DNA of 64,000 nt from Desulfobacteraceae bacterium (GTDB lineage: Bacteria > Desulfobacterota > Desulfobacteria > Desulfobacterales > Desulfosalsimonadaceae), in NCBI GenBank assembly GCA_003599885.1, contig QZKW01000066.1, positions 62,001-126,000 on the forward strand, given 5' to 3'. The notes beneath the pieces are model-generated. The model had not been told where the DNA came from and ran no database searches. It saw nothing but the letters and a program-made list of their open reading frames with translations. The position numbers and the translations under genes were made by a program. The first letter of the stretch is position 1. Every line of letters begins with the position of its first letter. Of the stretch, positions 12,450 through 38,389 are shown in pieces.

Positions 12450-13571
12450 ATGCAGATTAACGTTGCCGAAAAACTTTTAACCTTAAAGGGTAGAGGCCGC
12501 AAGGTGCTGGGATGTTTTCCTTTATATCCTCCCATGGAACTCTTTTATGCCCTGGATCTGGTGCCGGTTGTGCTGTGGGGCCTTAAGGACGCCATTAAAA
12601 GCACACCGGAATGCGACAAGCATCTGCAACCCTATACCTGTTCAGTTGCCCGGCATTTAACGGAATTTGTTTTGACTGAAGGCAGCGGGATGCTGGATGG
12701 AATTTTCATGTACAATGCCTGCGATACGTTACGCAACCTCCCTGAAATCATAACGACAGCGACTGAAAAAAACGGGCGTTCTTTGCCGCTGTTCAACATT
12801 CACATACCGATGGTTTTGCCGGAACAGACGGATGCATCAGCATATTTTAAAAATGAAATCAATCAGTTGATCAATGACCTGGAAAACAGGTTCGGCAAAA
12901 AATTTTCAAAAGAAAAATTCAAAGAAGCCGTAACAAAGGTCCAAAACATCCGGAAACTGATGGCTGATGCGGAAAAGCAGGTTGCTTTGGGAGCCATCCA
13001 TTTTTCAGATTTTTCAGAATCCGTGCATGCTTGCTGGTTCTCACCCCTTGAAGACCAGGCCGGAATCCTTGAAACACTCATCAATACCGGAAAAAATAGC
13101 AAATCCCAAAAAACATCCTTAAAAACCGGGGTTATTCTCAGCGGCATCCTGCCCCCGCCCGCATCGGTAATTGCAGCCATTGAATTATCCGGGCTGACAG
13201 TCGTGGGGAACGATATCGCCTCCCTTGGCCGAACCTATGCCAGCATGCCGAAGGTCAGTGAAGACCCGGACAGTTATTTTCTTGATTTTTACTATCAGCA
13301 TTACCCATGCCCGACCCTGCTGTATACGGGCGACCGCCGGACCACATCCCTGTTTAACCTCCTTGATGCCTCCGGGGCAAAGGCCGTTATTTTCATTGGT
13401 GAAAAATTCTGCGAGTATGAATATTTTGAATTTCCCTATTTAAGCAAGCAGTTAAACGATCGCGGAATTAAAACACTGGAAATTGAAATCGCCATTGATG
13501 ATGATGCCCATACATCGGCCCATCGATCAAGGATTGAGGCGTTTGCCGAAATGCTGAAATCAACCGAATAA
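12450..13571 (+). CDS. 2-hydroxyacyl-CoA dehydratase family subunit (BcrC/HgdB-like)
   Basis: This 373-aa protein belongs to the 2-hydroxyglutaryl-CoA dehydratase D-component family (PF06050). These subunits carry [4Fe-4S] clusters and accept an electron from an ATP-driven activator. Cysteines sit at the expected places: GCFPLYPPMEL, PYTCSVARH, NACDTLRNL and KFCEYEYFEFP. It is the small partner of the next gene, 20 bases away; the pair resembles BcrC+BcrB of class I benzoyl-CoA reductase or a 2-hydroxyacyl-CoA dehydratase. No activator ATPase is nearby, so the substrate is unknown. Confidence 0.85.
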   Translation: MQINVAEKLLTLKGRGRKVLGCFPLYPPMELFYALDLVPVVLWGLKDAIKSTPECDKHLQPYTCSVARHLTEFVLTEGSGMLDGIFMYNACDTLRNLPEIITTATEKNGRSLPLFNIHIPMVLPEQTDASAYFKNEINQLINDLENRFGKKFSKEKFKEAVTKVQNIRKLMADAEKQVALGAIHFSDFSESVHACWFSPLEDQAGILETLINTGKNSKSQKTSLKTGVILSGILPPPASVIAAIELSGLTVVGNDIASLGRTYASMPKVSEDPDSYFLDFYYQHYPCPTLLYTGDRRTTSLFNLLDASGAKAVIFIGEKFCEYEYFEFPYLSKQLNDRGIKTLEIEIAIDDDAHTSAHRSRIEAFAEMLKSTE

Positions 13572-13591
13572 AAAAAAGAGAGATTCTTTGA

Positions 13592-14833
13592 ATGTCTGAA
13601 AAAACCCATTCCGGCAAACATCTCACGAAAGTAGTGGGCGAAGCCTATATGGATCTCCATGCCCGTGCGGCCCAGGGCGCGTTTGTGGTGTGGATCGCCA
13701 TCAACGTGCCGGCGGAACTCTTTTATGGTTTTGATAATGTCGTATACGGCGTGCCGGAAAGCCATGCCGCATTAAACGCGGCCAAAGGCGCCGGTGTGAC
13801 GCAATGTGAAAAAGCCGAGCGTCTGGGCTATTCCATGGATCTGTGTTCTTATGCGCGAATTGATATCGGCAGCGTATCCGACAAGGGCATGGATTCGCCG
13901 ACCTTTGGCCTGCCGAAACCCGATCTTCTGGTGTCTGACACCAACAACTGCTCCCTGCTGGTCAAATGGTTTGAAGTCCACCACCGGGAAATGGGCGTGC
14001 CCCATTTTATAATTGATGTGCCTTTCTGTTATGAGCCCCAAAAAGAAAAAGACCGGCAATACATCATCCGCCAGTTTAAGGATTTGATCAAAACCATTGA
14101 ACGACTTTCCGGCCAGACATTTGACGAAAAAAAAGCCATGCAGGCAGTGGCCAATACCAGCGAAGGAATCAACCACTGGAAGCGGTTTTTAACCTTTGCC
14201 GAACACCGGCCCTCAGGCATTACGGCATTTGATTCATTTGTCCAGATGGCGCCGTTTTTAGTCGCCCGGGGCACCCCGCAGTTTGTGGAACATTACCGAA
14301 TGCTGGCCGATGAGACCGAACAAAGAGTGGCAGATGGCATCTTCCCGGTTCCCGATGAAAAATACCGCCTGTTCTGGGACAATATTGCGCCCTGGCACCA
14401 GCTTCGGGACATGTCCGGCAGACTGGCGGCTCTGGGGACCAATATCGTTGGCGCCACCTATACCTCGTGCATCGGGACGGTTGAAGGCAGCTTTGAGCTG
14501 TTTGCATTTGACGGCGGCGATCCCCTGGAGTACTGCGCCCGGACCCAGAATTGCTACATGTGCCCACACGGCATGAAACTTCGGGGAAAATCCATGAAAG
14601 AGGCGGTACAAAAACTCAACATTGACGGGATTGTGTTTGCCAGCAACCGGAGCTGCAAACCTTACTCCATTACCCAGATGGACCAGCAGAAACTCATGAC
14701 CGGCCAATTCGGAGTTCCCTCCGTCATGATTGAGGTGGACCATGCGGACGCAAGGAAATATTCAAGGGAATCCACCTTCACACGACTGGAGGCGTTGATT
14801 GAGGCGATAGAAGCAGGCCGCCGGGCCGTGTGA
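13592..14833 (+). CDS. 2-hydroxyacyl-CoA dehydratase family subunit (BcrB/BzdO-like)
   Basis: This is the larger (413 aa) partner of the preceding gene, in the same PF06050 family. Signature regions are VVWIAINVPAELFYGFDNV, DLCSYARIDIG, TNNCSLLVKWFE, CYMCPHGMKLRGKS and SNRSCKPYSITQMD. The Cys residues in these fit [4Fe-4S] ligation. Benzoyl-CoA reductase subunit B and 2-hydroxyisocaproyl-CoA dehydratase subunits are the nearest types I can name; which one cannot be decided. A 3' fragment of a close paralogue lies at 15969-16280. Confidence 0.85.
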   Translation: MSEKTHSGKHLTKVVGEAYMDLHARAAQGAFVVWIAINVPAELFYGFDNVVYGVPESHAALNAAKGAGVTQCEKAERLGYSMDLCSYARIDIGSVSDKGMDSPTFGLPKPDLLVSDTNNCSLLVKWFEVHHREMGVPHFIIDVPFCYEPQKEKDRQYIIRQFKDLIKTIERLSGQTFDEKKAMQAVANTSEGINHWKRFLTFAEHRPSGITAFDSFVQMAPFLVARGTPQFVEHYRMLADETEQRVADGIFPVPDEKYRLFWDNIAPWHQLRDMSGRLAALGTNIVGATYTSCIGTVEGSFELFAFDGGDPLEYCARTQNCYMCPHGMKLRGKSMKEAVQKLNIDGIVFASNRSCKPYSITQMDQQKLMTGQFGVPSVMIEVDHADARKYSRESTFTRLEALIEAIEAGRRAV

Positions 14834-15174: not shown

Positions 15175-15690
15175 TTGAAAAAGAAATGTTATATCATTTC
15201 AGGTCCAAATGGGGCGGGCAAAACGACTTTTGCAACCGAGTTTCTTCCTGTTGAGGCTGAATGCCTCAATTTCATTAACGCGGACTTAATTGCAAAAGGT
15301 TTGTCCCCTTTTCAGCCTGACAAAGTGGCGATTGCTGCCGGGCGGCTGATGATTCAACAAATCAATGAATGTGTCAGAAGAAACGAATCTTTTGCCTTTG
15401 AAACCACATTGAGCGGAAAGGAATATGCCGATAAAATCCGAAACTGGACGTCTCAAAATTACAAAATCATTATGTATTATCTAAAATTGCCCTCAGTTGA
15501 TTTGGCGATTGAACGTGTTAAGTTGCGAGTGATTCAGGGTGGCCACAATGTTCCGGAGCATGTTATCAGGCGAAGATATGTGAGGAGTTGGGAAAATTTT
15601 CATCAAATTTATAAACAACTGGCGGATTCCTGGACCATCTTTGACACATCCGGAAAAATTCCCGTCATTTTGGAAGCGTCGGGGGAATAA
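15175..15690 (+). CDS. zeta-toxin family P-loop kinase
   Basis: This 171-aa protein has a Walker A motif SGPNGAGKTTFA at residues 8-19, NADLIAKGLSPF, and the FAFETTLSGKEY segment typical of zeta toxins and related AAA kinases. Zeta toxins phosphorylate UDP-N-acetylglucosamine; that is known for the family and unproven here. The TTG start is supported by aaagagg just upstream; no ATG lies in frame near it. A small gene follows 3 bases after its stop. The patch is AT-richer than the flanking genes. Confidence 0.8.
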   Translation: MKKKCYIISGPNGAGKTTFATEFLPVEAECLNFINADLIAKGLSPFQPDKVAIAAGRLMIQQINECVRRNESFAFETTLSGKEYADKIRNWTSQNYKIIMYYLKLPSVDLAIERVKLRVIQGGHNVPEHVIRRRYVRSWENFHQIYKQLADSWTIFDTSGKIPVILEASGE

Positions 15691-15693
15691 TGA

Positions 15694-15894
15694 ATGGAAA
15701 AATATAATAGATATTCACTATTGGGTCTTAAAGCATTGCAGCGCGCCGCAGCCAAAGTGGCTGAGGATGCAAAAAAAAACAATTATAAAATACCTTTTTG
15801 GAAAAATGGCGGAATCGAATATGATATCCCGGAAATCATCACCAAACCCATGAGGACAGATCTGACCGGAGATGCGAATAAACCCCCCTCATGA
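15694..15894 (+). CDS. small hypothetical protein downstream of zeta toxin
   Basis: This 66-aa protein begins MEKYNRYSLLGLKALQRAA, has a Lys/Ala-rich helix and ends with DIPEIITKP. I recognise no named domain. Its position 3 bases after the toxin stop suggests a partner or antitoxin, which is inference from context only. Confidence 0.55.
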   Translation: MEKYNRYSLLGLKALQRAAAKVAEDAKKNNYKIPFWKNGGIEYDIPEIITKPMRTDLTGDANKPPS

Positions 15895-15968
15895 GTGTCA
15901 TTTCCGCACCAAATCTGGATGGCATTATAGCCGTTGCTGCTGTTAATTGGTAAGGTGTCCACTGAATT

Positions 15969-16280
15969 CCGCTGGACTACTGCGCCCGGACACAGAACTG
16001 CTATATGTGCCCCCACGGCATGAAACTTCGGGGAAAATCCATGAAAGAGGCGGTACAGAAACTCAACATTGACGGGATTGTGTTTGCCAGCAACCGGAGC
16101 TGCAAGCCCTACTCCATTACCCAGATGGACCAGCAGAAACTCATGACCGGCCAATTCGGCGTTCCCTCCGTCATGATTGAGGTGGACCATGCGGACGCAC
16201 GGAAATACGCCAGAGAATCCACCTTTACAAGGCTGGAGGCTCTGATTGAGTCCATAGAAACATCCCGCCGCGCCGCGTGA
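15969..16280 (+). pseudogene. 3' remnant of a second BcrB-like dehydratase subunit gene
   Basis: This stretch matches the last ~104 codons of the gene at 13592-14833 nearly codon for codon, starting at LDYCARTQNC and ending at its stop. The differences are mostly synonymous, with a few replacements near the end (ARE, ESIETSRRAA). The first ~75% of the gene is missing, and the toxin module lies where it would be. It is not a functional subunit on its own. Confidence 0.85.
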
Positions 16281-16391: not shown

Positions 16392-16706
16392 TCAACAGTT
16401 CGGATGCGCGATGACATCCTCAAGCCGGGTGATCAGATCCGCACATACCGCCCGCCGTGCTTCCATCTCTTCCAGCCATTCCATCGCCTGATGCCGGAAC
16501 TATTCCTGGGGTTCTCGTCCAAATGGTTCGGCGGGGTTTTTTGCCCATTGCGATGCGGCCCTGATCCGACGGTTTCCGTGGAACACGGGGGCAAACTGTT
16601 TGAGCGGCTAAATGCCGATGAGCCTGCCGGTTGCGATAAAGGTTATCGGAATAACAATCTCCCGGCATTCCTCGGTGACAGCGAGTTTTTGCCCACGCCA
16701 CGGAGA
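16392..16706 (-). pseudogene. decayed ORF of unknown family
   Basis: On the minus strand one frame reads as convincing protein (WRGQKLAVTEECREIVIPIT, then PVFHGNRRIRAASQWAKN, then AMEWLEEMEARRA and LITRLEDVIAHPNC). Two in-frame stops, after LIGI and after GREPQE, break it. I cannot name the family. It lies between two perfect palindromes and looks like an inactivated mobile-element passenger. Confidence 0.4.
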
Positions 16707-16741
16707 CCGGAAGGGGCAGGGAGCTTTCCGCAGCGCACGGG

Positions 16742-16782
16742 CTGGGTTCTTTTGTTACTTTTCTTGCCCTCAAGAAAAGTAA
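16742..16782 (+). repeat. 22-bp direct repeat copy 2 with 28-bp hairpin
   Basis: The direct repeat of 14868-14889 (16742-16763) runs into a perfect inverted repeat ttacttttcttg/caagaaaagtaa with loop ccct (16755-16782). Sequences of this kind are dispersed in many proteobacterial genomes. Confidence 0.75.
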
Positions 16783-16875
16783 AAATGACAAGGGGCCGCC
16801 GGAGGTATCGGTTAAAAAATCAATTTAACCACCGTTGAATCTGTCAAGAGTGCAGCGTCTGGCCCTGTTATTTTT

Positions 16876-16942
16876 CGCAACGCCCCGGCTCACAGGTGAA
16901 GGTCGCACAGCGGACTGAATCCTTGTGGAGCCGGTTGTTATG
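16876..16942 (-). other. attC-like integron recombination site (site 2)
   Basis: On the minus strand an outer CATAAC / GTTGCG pair encloses complementary arms. CATAACAACCGGCTCCACAAGG (with a single extra base) faces the reverse complement CGCAAC..CCGGCTC-ACAGG, and a variable central loop separates them. Imperfect arms with an unpaired base and AAC/GTT cores are what define attC sites. It follows the stop of the gene at 16957-17505 by about 15 bases. Confidence 0.65.
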
Positions 16943-16956
16943 GATTATCAGCAAAT

Positions 16957-17505
16957 TTATGATGATTTATCCGTTTTTATCTGTTTTTGAAATTCTTCTA
17001 ATGCCTTCGAACCATCCTTCCATCTACTAATCTCTCCATACTCTTTATTTTTAAAACTTTTGTTTTGATTTAATGGGAGCAATTTCATCCGAATGCATTT
17101 GTCTATAACTCTTGACGTATAAAAGTAATTCCCGATTCTATGAGTATTGTGTCTTGGCCAAAACATCATCCGAGCTTGAAGGTAATTTGCAAAAAGAGCA
17201 AAAAATTCATTTAATGGGATCTGTCCTTTAATAACTGCAAAACACAACAAATTAAACTTAGCCTCTATGTGCTCTTGCTTCCGGTTACAGTTATAATCTC
17301 TGATATATCTTTCATCCTCATCTATATCTTCTGGCTCAGGTGGAATTATATCGCTTATATCTTTTACCTCATTCGGTTCATTAAGCTTCAGGTCCGAATA
17401 AAATTTGAATAAAAGATCATAACTGCGATTCCTACTCCCGAGACGAACAGCATAAAGTGATAGCAAAAGAGATACGATTGCAATAGCTATACTTACATAT
17501 TGCAT
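16957..17505 (-). CDS. hypothetical membrane-anchored protein (cassette gene)
   Basis: This 182-aa protein has one N-terminal membrane segment (residues 4-20, IAIAIVSLLLSLYAVRL) and a soluble, charged remainder with an acidic stretch PPEPEDIDEDE at about 62-72. I recognise no named domain. Codon use is AT-richer than the housekeeping genes. aaaggaaat precedes the start. It is the only ORF between two attC-like hairpins. Confidence 0.65.
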   Translation of the reverse strand: MQYVSIAIAIVSLLLSLYAVRLGSRNRSYDLLFKFYSDLKLNEPNEVKDISDIIPPEPEDIDEDERYIRDYNCNRKQEHIEAKFNLLCFAVIKGQIPLNEFFALFANYLQARMMFWPRHNTHRIGNYFYTSRVIDKCIRMKLLPLNQNKSFKNKEYGEISRWKDGSKALEEFQKQIKTDKSS

Positions 17506-17518
17506 TTATATTTCCTTT

Positions 17519-17577
17519 CCATAACATGCTGCTCTCCGGCGCGAGGAACGAGCGTCGGGAGCAGCAGCTGGTTATTA
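17519..17577 (-). other. attC-like integron recombination site (site 1)
   Basis: The core ATAAC at one end and GTTAT at the other enclose long imperfect arms (ccagctgctgctcccgacgc against atgctgctctccggcgc, compared as the same strand), leaving two extra bases on one arm. The site begins at the stop codon of the gene at 17575-17916 and ends just before the ribosome-binding site of the next, as in cassette arrays. Confidence 0.65.
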
Positions 17578-17916
17578 GCTTTTTGGTATTGCTTTAATTG
17601 CAGGGATCAACTCGGCAAATAAAAAATAGGCTGAGTATATTGTTCTGATCATCACAACAATAACTATAAATCGAGCAACCCACGCCCATCCCTGCCACTT
17701 AACGTTTTTGGAACACCGCCATACTGATATTAATGAAACAGCCAAGAATGCAAAGGTAACCAATATTAAGACAAGCCCAATGGTTTCTAATTTTGTTGTG
17801 TCGTCGAGAAGGGAAAAAATTAAAAGGTTTAAAAAAAGTATACAGATATAGCCTCCTACGAACAGGAGCCAAAAAGCCTGCCACAGCGACCTTTCACCAA
17901 TCCAAAATTTTTTCAT
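17575..17916 (-). CDS. hypothetical small membrane protein (cassette gene)
   Basis: This 113-aa protein has three hydrophobic helices (about residues 13-36, 45-66 and 79-101) and a short basic N-terminus (MKKFWIGER). No family is recognised. Base composition is AT-rich. It lies between attC-like sites 3 and 1; its stop codon forms part of site 1. Confidence 0.6.
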   Translation of the reverse strand: MKKFWIGERSLWQAFWLLFVGGYICILFLNLLIFSLLDDTTKLETIGLVLILVTFAFLAVSLISVWRCSKNVKWQGWAWVARFIVIVVMIRTIYSAYFLFAELIPAIKAIPKS

Positions 17917-17935
17917 TCTTACACTCTAATCTTAT

Positions 17936-18004
17936 GCTTATAACAAGCAATTCAAAAGTTTCTGGATATCTATAATAGACGGAAAGAGGCATTGCACTTA
18001 AAGC
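17936..18004 (-). other. possible attC-like site (site 3, degenerate)
   Basis: GCTTATAACAAGCAATTC at one end can pair imperfectly with GAAAGAGGCATTGCACTTAAAGC at the other, around a small inner hairpin tctattataga. The match is weaker than for the other sites and one core lacks AAC. Confidence 0.4.
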
Positions 18005-36145: not shown

Positions 36146-36397
36146 ATGGAAGCTATAACCTACACAGCTGCAAGACAAAATCTTGCAAAAACAATGGATA
36201 AGGTCTGTGATGACCGCTCGCCAATTATTGTGACACGCAAATCATCAAATTCTGTTGTTATCATGTCACTTGCTGATTATGAATCCCTTGAAGAAACAGC
36301 ATATCTTTTGCGATCACCTAAAAATACAAAGCGTCTTTTAGAATCAATCGTCCAGCTTGAAAATGGGAAGGGGCATGAAAAGGAGCTTATAGAGTGA
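36146..36397 (+). CDS. YefM/Phd family antitoxin
   Basis: This 83-aa antitoxin has AITYTAARQNLAKTMDKVCD, then PIIVTRKSSNSVVIMSLADY, the Phd/YefM dimerisation and DNA-binding fold, and a charged C-terminus that would wrap the toxin. aggaggaatc supplies the ribosome-binding site. The end overlaps the toxin gene by 4 bases. Such pairs are frequent integron passengers. Confidence 0.92.
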   Translation: MEAITYTAARQNLAKTMDKVCDDRSPIIVTRKSSNSVVIMSLADYESLEETAYLLRSPKNTKRLLESIVQLENGKGHEKELIE

Positions 36398-36648
36398 AGC
36401 TCATTTTTTCTGACCATGCATGGGACGATTACCTTTTCTGGCAAAAAACAGACCAACAAATTGCACACCGAATCAATAACCTGATCAACGATACAATGCG
36501 TAACCCATTTGAGGGCATTGGAAAACCTGAACCTTTAAAACATGCCCTCTCAGGGTATTGGTCCCGACGAATCACTGATGAACACCGGTTTGTCTACAAA
36601 GCCTCTGAAAATGCAATTGAAATAGCGCAACTCCGATACCACTATTGA
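36394..36648 (+). CDS. YoeB family mRNA interferase toxin
   Basis: This 84-aa RelE-fold toxin cuts mRNA in the ribosomal A site. It has SDHAWDDYLFWQKTD near the N-terminus, GIGKPEPLKHALSGYWSRRI, then DEHRFVYK and a terminal LRYHY, the YoeB signature with catalytic Glu, Arg and His positions. GTG start at 36394. The gene lies just left of an attC hairpin. Confidence 0.92.
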   Translation: MKLIFSDHAWDDYLFWQKTDQQIAHRINNLINDTMRNPFEGIGKPEPLKHALSGYWSRRITDEHRFVYKASENAIEIAQLRYHY

Positions 36649-36662
36649 CTCTTTAGATCCTG

Positions 36663-36723
36663 CCTCAACGTGAAAATCACAGGCGCCAGCAGTTAGGCGT
36701 CCTGTGCATTTTGTGGTTATGTG
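36663..36723 (-). other. attC integron recombination site (site A)
   Basis: On the minus strand the arms CACATAACCACAAAATGCACAGG-ACGCC and (reverse-complemented) CCTCAACGTGAAAATC-ACAGG-CGCC pair almost fully, with two extrahelical bases on one arm. The loop taactgct separates them, and the ends carry ATAAC and GTTGAGG cores. This is the strongest attC in the window. It sits right at the end of the gene at 36717-37229. Confidence 0.78.
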
Positions 36724-37229
36724 CCCCATTTAGCTCTTGTAATTATAATGAGTACGACAAGTATTGTTTCTAAGACAAATAAGCCTTCTACTATGGACTC
36801 TCGAATCATCATATACCGTTGCTGCCTGGCAGATCTATCAACTTCCTCCTGTCTATACTGTGCGGTGTATTCATCAATGAGTTGTCTCATTTCTTCTTCA
36901 GATCGGGCTGTCTTACGTACATCTTCAGGCACATCTGGCAGATCGTCCACTGTCAGTTTACCTATTTTATAATAATTCATCTTTATGGTTCGGAAATTCC
37001 ATATCAATAACCATAATGAGGTAATGCACGCCCCAATGAGAAGATAATTGAAGAAGACTGTTTTTTCATCAGACGACAAGACATCGATAGAGAAAAAAGT
37101 CAACAACAGACCGTTGATCGTGATTAGTGCGCTCCAGTAGATATTCACCGATTCAAGATATTTATCGATCAGTCGAACGTGATATTCTTTTCTATGGTCT
37201 TTCGCCAACGGTAAGTCCTTATTTTTCAT
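36717..37229 (-). CDS. hypothetical membrane protein (cassette gene, second in pair)
   Basis: This 170-aa protein has three hydrophobic segments (about residues 33-51, 60-82 and 147-165) and a charged loop DLPDVPEDVRKTARSEEEM between the second and third. I recognise no firm family; it resembles small cassette-borne membrane proteins such as the RipA-type octameric group. The start meets the end of the upstream lipoprotein gene, so the two share a cassette. The stop lies in the attC hairpin. Confidence 0.65.
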   Translation of the reverse strand: MKNKDLPLAKDHRKEYHVRLIDKYLESVNIYWSALITINGLLLTFFSIDVLSSDEKTVFFNYLLIGACITSLWLLIWNFRTIKMNYYKIGKLTVDDLPDVPEDVRKTARSEEEMRQLIDEYTAQYRQEEVDRSARQQRYMMIRESIVEGLFVLETILVVLIIITRAKWGT

Positions 37230-37747
37230 TATTGATTTTTCAAGGATACTGCTGACAGATTGGACATCATATCTGCGACTGCAATATTATATGCGTCTTG
37301 AGAAACAGCTTTGGCTGTAGCATAACCCCACATATTTGATCGGTGCGCATTCCCTTCAGCGTTCCAATTTCCAATGATGTTGTTTTGGGAGTCTATTAAT
37401 TTTATACGAAGTTTCGTCAAACCATTCCAGTTTCCAAGTGTGAAAAATGAACGGTGCTCAATAATATCAATCTGCAAATTATACAAAGATCGACTACCTA
37501 CTATTTTTTCAGATGATAAGGCACTCAAAATTTGACCTTTTATTGCTTGGATTAATTGCTCGGAATTTTCTTTTTCCGCGCGCAAATCATTTACCTGCAC
37601 CCGAACAACATCTGATGGCATTCCTGACAAACTATACTGTGTTCCAATAGGCTCTGGAGTGTATTGTTTTGTTTGAGCGCATCCTGCAAAGACCACGATT
37701 AGGATGAACAAGAATGAAAAGCGAGAAAAGTATTTTTTCATTGCCAC
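37229..37747 (-). CDS. hypothetical lipoprotein (cassette gene, first in pair)
   Basis: The 172-aa precursor has a signal ending in VVFAGC, so it is probably lipid-anchored. The mature part is beta-rich with no named domain: VRVQVNDLRAEKENSEQL, LQIDIIEHRSF, LRIKLIDSQNN. It is overlapped by or touches the next gene. cggaggtggca precedes the start. The base composition is AT-rich. Confidence 0.65.
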   Translation of the reverse strand: MAMKKYFSRFSFLFILIVVFAGCAQTKQYTPEPIGTQYSLSGMPSDVVRVQVNDLRAEKENSEQLIQAIKGQILSALSSEKIVGSRSLYNLQIDIIEHRSFFTLGNWNGLTKLRIKLIDSQNNIIGNWNAEGNAHRSNMWGYATAKAVSQDAYNIAVADMMSNLSAVSLKNQ

Positions 37748-37957: not shown

Positions 37958-38389
37958 TTAAAGCTCGTCCATCGGACTGCGAACACCGGACGGACCTCGG
38001 TTGAGGACATGGGTATAAATCATCGTGGTCTTGACATCGCTATGGCCCAAAAGTTCCTGCACCGTTCGGATGTCGTAACCTCCTTCGAGCAAATGGGTGG
38101 CGAAGGAATGCCGGAAGGTGTGGCAAGTGGCTCGCTTCATTATATTTGCAGTCATTACTGCATCCCTGACAGCCTTTTGAACCAATGATTCGTCAATGTG
38201 ATGGCGGCCTTGTTCCCTTGTGGTGGGATTGATCCACCGGTTTTCCTGGGGGAAGAACCATTGCCACCGCCATTCAACAGGGGCATTCGGGTATTTCCGG
38301 TCTAACACATCGGGCATCGCCACCCGGCCCCATCCATCGGCCATATCCTTATCATGAATGACTTTGACTTTTCCCAAATGGCATAGCCG
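37958..38389 (-). pseudogene. intI: truncated integron integrase, C-terminal half
   Basis: The residues [20 protein letters not shown], then [16 protein letters not shown], and [18 protein letters not shown] belong to the IntI-only insert found in integron integrases. They continue with the tyrosine-recombinase box [40 protein letters not shown] (catalytic R, H-x-x-R region and Y) and the usual ending GVRSPMDEL. The N-terminal ~180 residues, including the first catalytic Arg, are missing: a stop lies at 38387-38389 and a repeat element follows. It cannot be active. Confidence 0.92.

Follow-up and report, generated by a model that had tools for sequence, protein, structure and literature searches.

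A highly probable two-attC CALIN beginning at the GTT border of a dispersed element

How do gene cassettes come to lie in a chromosome at a place with no integron integrase beside them? The origin of CALINs (the term is used here as defined in IntegronFinder; PMC9024848) is unsettled, and the explanations put forward include loss of intI, rearrangement and off-target insertion (PMC8618304). The question arises at one locus of the window, that is, the whole 64-kb stretch of DNA that was analyzed, where a dispersed element (E) is followed, in the direction of the genes, by ORF A, the hairpin S2, ORF B and the hairpin S1, all on the minus strand. The first-pass annotation had read the locus as two lone small genes pointing the same way, with the stop codon of one merged into a hairpin and the ribosome-binding site of the next behind it, and this is indeed what is found. 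ORF A (17916-17575, minus strand; 113 aa), the first cassette gene, encodes a hydrophobic product with no family above the cut-off, and ORF B (17505-16957, minus strand; 182 aa), the second, is an orphan with a single N-terminal hydrophobic stretch. Between them lies S2 (17577-17519, minus strand; 59 nt). The first three bases of its R'' box, TAATAAC, are the TAA stop codon of ORF A (17577-17575), and the ribosome-binding site of ORF B, GGAAAGGA, is located after its R' box, GTTATGG. S1 (16943-16875, minus strand; 69 nt; R'' box CCATAAC, R' box GTTGCGA) closes cassette B, which measures about 644 bp from the S2 joint to the S1 joint. Both genes are AT-rich, with GC contents of 34% for ORF A and 38% for ORF B, against 49% for the window.

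Are the two hairpins attC sites? The calls rest on two covariance models built for this analysis: R1, from 18 attC sites (of class 1 integrons on plasmids and, elsewhere in the order, of arrays linked to intI; this genome supplied none), and R2, from 34 sites, longer ones included and likewise from genomes other than this one. When R1 was run over the whole 64-kb window with filters off, S2 ranked second at 27.3 bits and S1 third at 19.4 bits (E-values of 2e-4 and 0.02, which like all those from these models are rough); the next-ranked match reached 12.6 bits (E about 1.3), and S2 on the opposite strand 12.1 bits. With R2, also over the whole window, S2 and S1 scored 25.7 and 25.6 bits (E roughly 0.001 each), and the next match 10.9 bits. 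The sole match in the window that scores higher than these two is at 36722-36663, beside an intI remnant, and all three are on the minus strand. On 150 kb of mostly congener DNA, R1 returned nothing at E<=1. The predicted fold of S2 is far better than that of shuffled sequences (z of -3.5 and -4.6 on the two strands). The box consensus RYYYAAC/GTTRRRY is followed only in part at S1 and S2, where the AAC/GTT cores are present and the orientation is that of the genes.

The inner sequences of the two sites recur in attC sites elsewhere. In an exact search with 17 bases from the interior of S2, CGACGCTCGTNCCTCGCG, 10 places were found in 291 genomes of the order (and none with a reversed-pattern control), and all nine of the places outside this genome are attC-model matches in the same orientation; one of the nine (in G084) belonged to the R1 training set. 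The CAC, TCCGCTG and GTGA blocks of S1 are also present in four other arrays, in their attC sites; one of these arrays is in a congener, two (L047 and L056) contributed to the training of R2, and none to that of R1. In a member of the family that has no intI match, the inner sequence of S2 occurs in two lone attC sites (G021:C2:104971 and G021:C3:589543; L131 and L136). An intrinsic terminator was also considered at S1 and S2 and was rejected, a T-run terminator being absent at both hairpins.

S1 and S2 are thus two neighboring attC sites, 576 bp apart, and the closest intI fragment is about 20 kb away, at the distance that the first-pass annotation had given. This fragment (37961-38380, minus strand) holds only the C-terminal part of the integrase, matching positions 176-315 of TIGR02249 at 222 bits, below the family cut-off. 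The attC pair sits 79 kb inside a 203-kb contig and is therefore not the product of a contig break. Very probably, then, 16875-17577 is a two-attC CALIN on the minus strand, as had been proposed from its layout: two tandem attC sites on one strand, each closing a small gene, and no integrase within 20 kb. It resembles other CALINs in its tandem attC sites, its small orphan genes, the lack of a nearby intI, and its chromosomal position in an integron-rich lineage. It differs from them in beginning where a dispersed element of about 130-150 bp, which recurs before other genes and cassettes, ends in GTT. The CALIN is of an ordinary kind at a new locus, and this start at an element that also heads other cassettes is its unusual feature.

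The element came to light at the place of a third hairpin, 17936-18004, which the first-pass annotation had grouped with the other two as having an AAC/GTT core. S2 and S1, second and third in the window and matched by both R1 and R2, bear that claim out; the third site does not. Its R'' box is absent (AAG in place of AAC), R2 gives it about 3 bits or less, and its fold is no better than that of shuffled sequences (z of +0.5 and -0.1); it was rejected as an attC site on these three counts. The stretch is the end of a copy of E (18069-17941, minus strand), and this copy ends at a GTT (17944-17942) that is exactly the start of the array and of cassette A. At least nine copies of E are found in this genome and one in the congener G001. 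The match is 89% for the copy on contig C12, 82% on C77, 77% and about 70% for two copies on C36, 72% on C1 and 68% in G001; C49 carries three copies, one of them only partly similar. The three on C49 (L194:5315-13749) all point the same way and span no more than 8.5 kb; a HicA/HicB toxin-antitoxin pair follows one of them and a sulfatase gene another.

The copies have a sharp border. All of them end at the same triplet, GTT except in one decayed copy with GCT, and there the information content drops from 1.48 bits per column to 0.44. Past this point there is a different leader and gene each time, and the starts (GTTATGG, GTTGGAC, GTTGGGC, GTTCGGC and so on) resemble the 5' ends of cassettes. 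Behind the next gene or genes there is an attC on the same strand in four of the ten copies, namely in the window, on C36 (two attC sites), on C1 (a methyltransferase gene, then an attC) and in G001; none was detected at the other six. The probability that four in ten would arise by chance is about 4e-7, allowing a generous 30 attC sites in the genome, or 2e-5 for this genome alone, and it is still about 2e-5 for three in nine when the window copy is left out (same formula, calculated by hand), all figures that presuppose independence, an assumption that may fail for repeats in variable regions. E was ruled out as a structured RNA: it has no conserved structure that could be found and no match in Rfam. 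There are no copies in plasmids, and the 3' end of E has no exact match in viral contigs.

What, then, does E do? Its border, together with the attC sites behind four copies, points to a cassette acceptor as the probable role. The preferred reading of the locus, at a probability of roughly 65%, is that of a decayed cassette pair placed at a dispersed site, attI/attG-like, by an IntI of the past or from outside. An integron integrase, either ancestral and now fragmented or supplied by other incoming DNA, would have recombined the folded attC sites of circular cassettes with the terminal GTT of E, which would serve as an attI- or attG-like acceptor; the position of the cassette joint at this GTT is read from the sequence border. 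Cassette A would then be bounded by E (5') and S2 (3'), and cassette B by S2 and S1. Once the integrase had been lost, the pair would be stuck unless IntI were supplied in trans. Weighing against this reading are the moderate R1 score of S1 and its fold, the six copies of E in ten with no attC detected behind them, the lack of a match between E and the intI-adjacent regions compared, the large ordinary genes behind some copies, and the lack of a sequence common to the copies past the last attC, which would have proved that a target was interrupted.

How closely does E match known recombination sites? Like attI, it is unstructured, lies upstream of the first cassette and has its joint at a GTT. 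Unlike attI, it has no intI beside any of its copies, is present at least nine times in a single genome, and has no match to the compared intI-adjacent regions of relatives; it also has no match to the stretch between the intI fragment on C1 and the cassette of that fragment. In view of this likeness in structure and joint but lack of adjacency to intI, E is described here as attI/attG-like, with no claim to membership of either class. For attG, passages in PMC12901181 and in PMC12444791 (citing Loot et al. 2024) describe cassettes that enter genomes outside attI and attC, and the present cassettes likewise have their joint at a GTT outside integron DNA. A passage of PMC12444791 describes attG insertions at numerous loci in E. 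coli, whereas here the same sequence of about 130-150 bp recurs. Truncated attI sites within arrays are also known (PMC12901181). The Delta-attI sites of class 1 and 2 integrons resemble E in having their joint (GTTRRRY) outside the usual position; these pieces derive from attI, measure 14-18 nt (or longer) and lie behind an ORF in intI-bearing arrays, whereas E has about 130-150 bp and lies before an ORF (PMC12901181). A recurring cassette acceptor of the size of E was not found in a limited search of the literature.

The best surviving alternative is that the locus is an ordinary CALIN made by occasional off-target insertion, with E an unrelated repeat whose GTT end is a good secondary site of attG type and which has no role in integrons. 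Insertion at attG sites is documented (PMC12901181, PMC12444791), and the six copies of E without a detected attC also speak for this alternative. However, an ordinary repeat that had been interrupted should continue on the far side, and no sequence past the last attC is shared among the copies that could be the preserved right half of a target. All copies, those without attC included, stop at the same triplet with no common right half, and this makes the alternative unlikely. Less probable still is a conserved leader or promoter repeat, acting as DNA or RNA before variable genes, with no part in recombination and with its link to attC due to shared variable regions. The start codon does lie about 20-90 bp past E in most copies, and some of the genes after E are not cassette-like, among them large ordinary genes (DUF2339, sulfatase). 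Against such a leader stand the lack of conserved structure and of an Rfam family, the border exactly at the triplet of the cassette joint, and the attC sites that follow four of the ten copies in the same direction.

If the acceptor reading is right, E, with a precise GTT border before several independent cassettes, would be a concrete candidate acceptor for off-target or trans insertion into the chromosome, and a possible reason for the scattered lone cassettes in this genome. One may go further and suggest, tentatively and with the odds against it, that the copies of E form a family of orphan attI-like landing sites, loaded by IntI in trans at many chromosomal places. Such a family would turn a genome with one integron into a multi-platform system that outlasts its integrase.

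Could the cassette pair instead have been left behind by the integron whose remains lie at 36-38 kb? The first-pass annotation had suggested that both clusters are the scattered remainder of one array. They do share a strand and a contig, they are 20 kb apart, and both have small AT-rich genes of cassette type. However, between them lies a chromosomal block (Maf, an alanine-racemase-like gene (AlaR), QueH and M48) that is syntenic in four congeners, which have no attC there; the congeners lack the flank that lies upstream of Maf here. The attC beside the intI remnant (36722-36663, minus strand; 41.3 bits with R1, at a rough E of 4e-8, and 42.7 bits with R2), S1 and S2 are pairwise 55-58% identical, which is weak evidence, as the arrays of relatives are mixed too. 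The attC next to the intI remnant shares its strand and is found to the 3' side of it; in relatives, arrays are on the 5' side of intI and on the opposite strand. A common origin in one former array is thus highly improbable on grounds of synteny, attC divergence and orientation, and the suggestion was given up; independent insertion or independent decay is the more economical account.

Several features of the intI-side cluster may be recorded in their own right. The reversed placement of its attC, relative to the intact integrons of relatives, was noted together with the region 36720-37747. A Phd/YefM-YoeB toxin-antitoxin pair (36146-36648, plus strand) faces the cassettes, and 15 bp separate its end from the attC at 36663. 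Between the intI remnant and its attC there is an ORF (36717-37229) with a weak PADLOC match to PycTM (E 1e-4), and its product is possibly a membrane effector of a defense system.

In the genome as a whole (G000; 98.8% complete, in 90 contigs) no IntI exceeds the family cut-off, and there are only fragments: the one in the window (contig C2), C1:239445-239815, C11:59358-59504 and C37:11355-11483. Those on C1 and C37 have an attC within about 1 kb. The four fragments are the remains of several decayed integrons, not one. The attC sites number at least about twenty; they are mostly single or in pairs and are distributed over more than a dozen contigs. Among relatives, intact integrons are present in 68 of 146 genomes.

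A hand-made scorer of AAC...GTT arms finds known attC sites but is unspecific at loose thresholds, and covariance models were used instead. At a loose cut-off it found 17 sites in the window against 13 expected from shuffled sequences; it does not separate the two, and the covariance models therefore carry the attC claim. The view of the hairpins as ordinary terminators, or as inverted repeats that arose by chance, which is favored by this count and by the fold of S1, which taken alone is not significantly better than that of shuffled sequences (z of -1.1 and -1.3), is scarcely credible given the model matches on the gene strand, with low (if rough) E-values in 64 kb, the attC-specific inner sequence of S2 and the blocks that S1 has in common with other attC sites.

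The cassette proteins themselves give little more to go on. The first-pass annotation had proposed looking for the two in other integron arrays. ORF B has no relatives in the plasmids, phages or genome collection scanned by peptide pattern, and very weak short matches at most among 389 genomes of the order; its structure, predicted without an alignment, has a pLDDT of 45 and does not allow an interpretation. ORF A has one relative with 40% identity, in the congener G005 (G005:C234:9864-10130; L070), with no attC beside it. This relative, the only clear one, is followed by a copy of a dispersed repeat of about 260 bp, which also occurs beside the CALIN. With their hydrophobic stretches, the predicted products of both ORFs look membrane-associated.

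The same repeat has about 40 matches in the genome. Its window copy (16525-16820, plus strand) begins about 75 bp past the R' box of S1 and, as far as shown, belongs to the flank and not to the cassette. At four attC or attC-like sites (S1 of the window and sites on C45, C17 and C37) the repeat starts 22-136 bp past the R' box, always antisense to the attC, and inverted pairs of it are found 1-2 kb upstream of attC sites on C6 (two) and C8. By a rough estimate, this proximity to attC is above chance. Beside the CALIN, the stretch 15175-16277 is decayed and contains an ORF that resembles a zeta toxin, along with a fragment from the C-terminus of the D-component of 2-hydroxyglutaryl-CoA dehydratase, full copies of which lie at 12450-14833.
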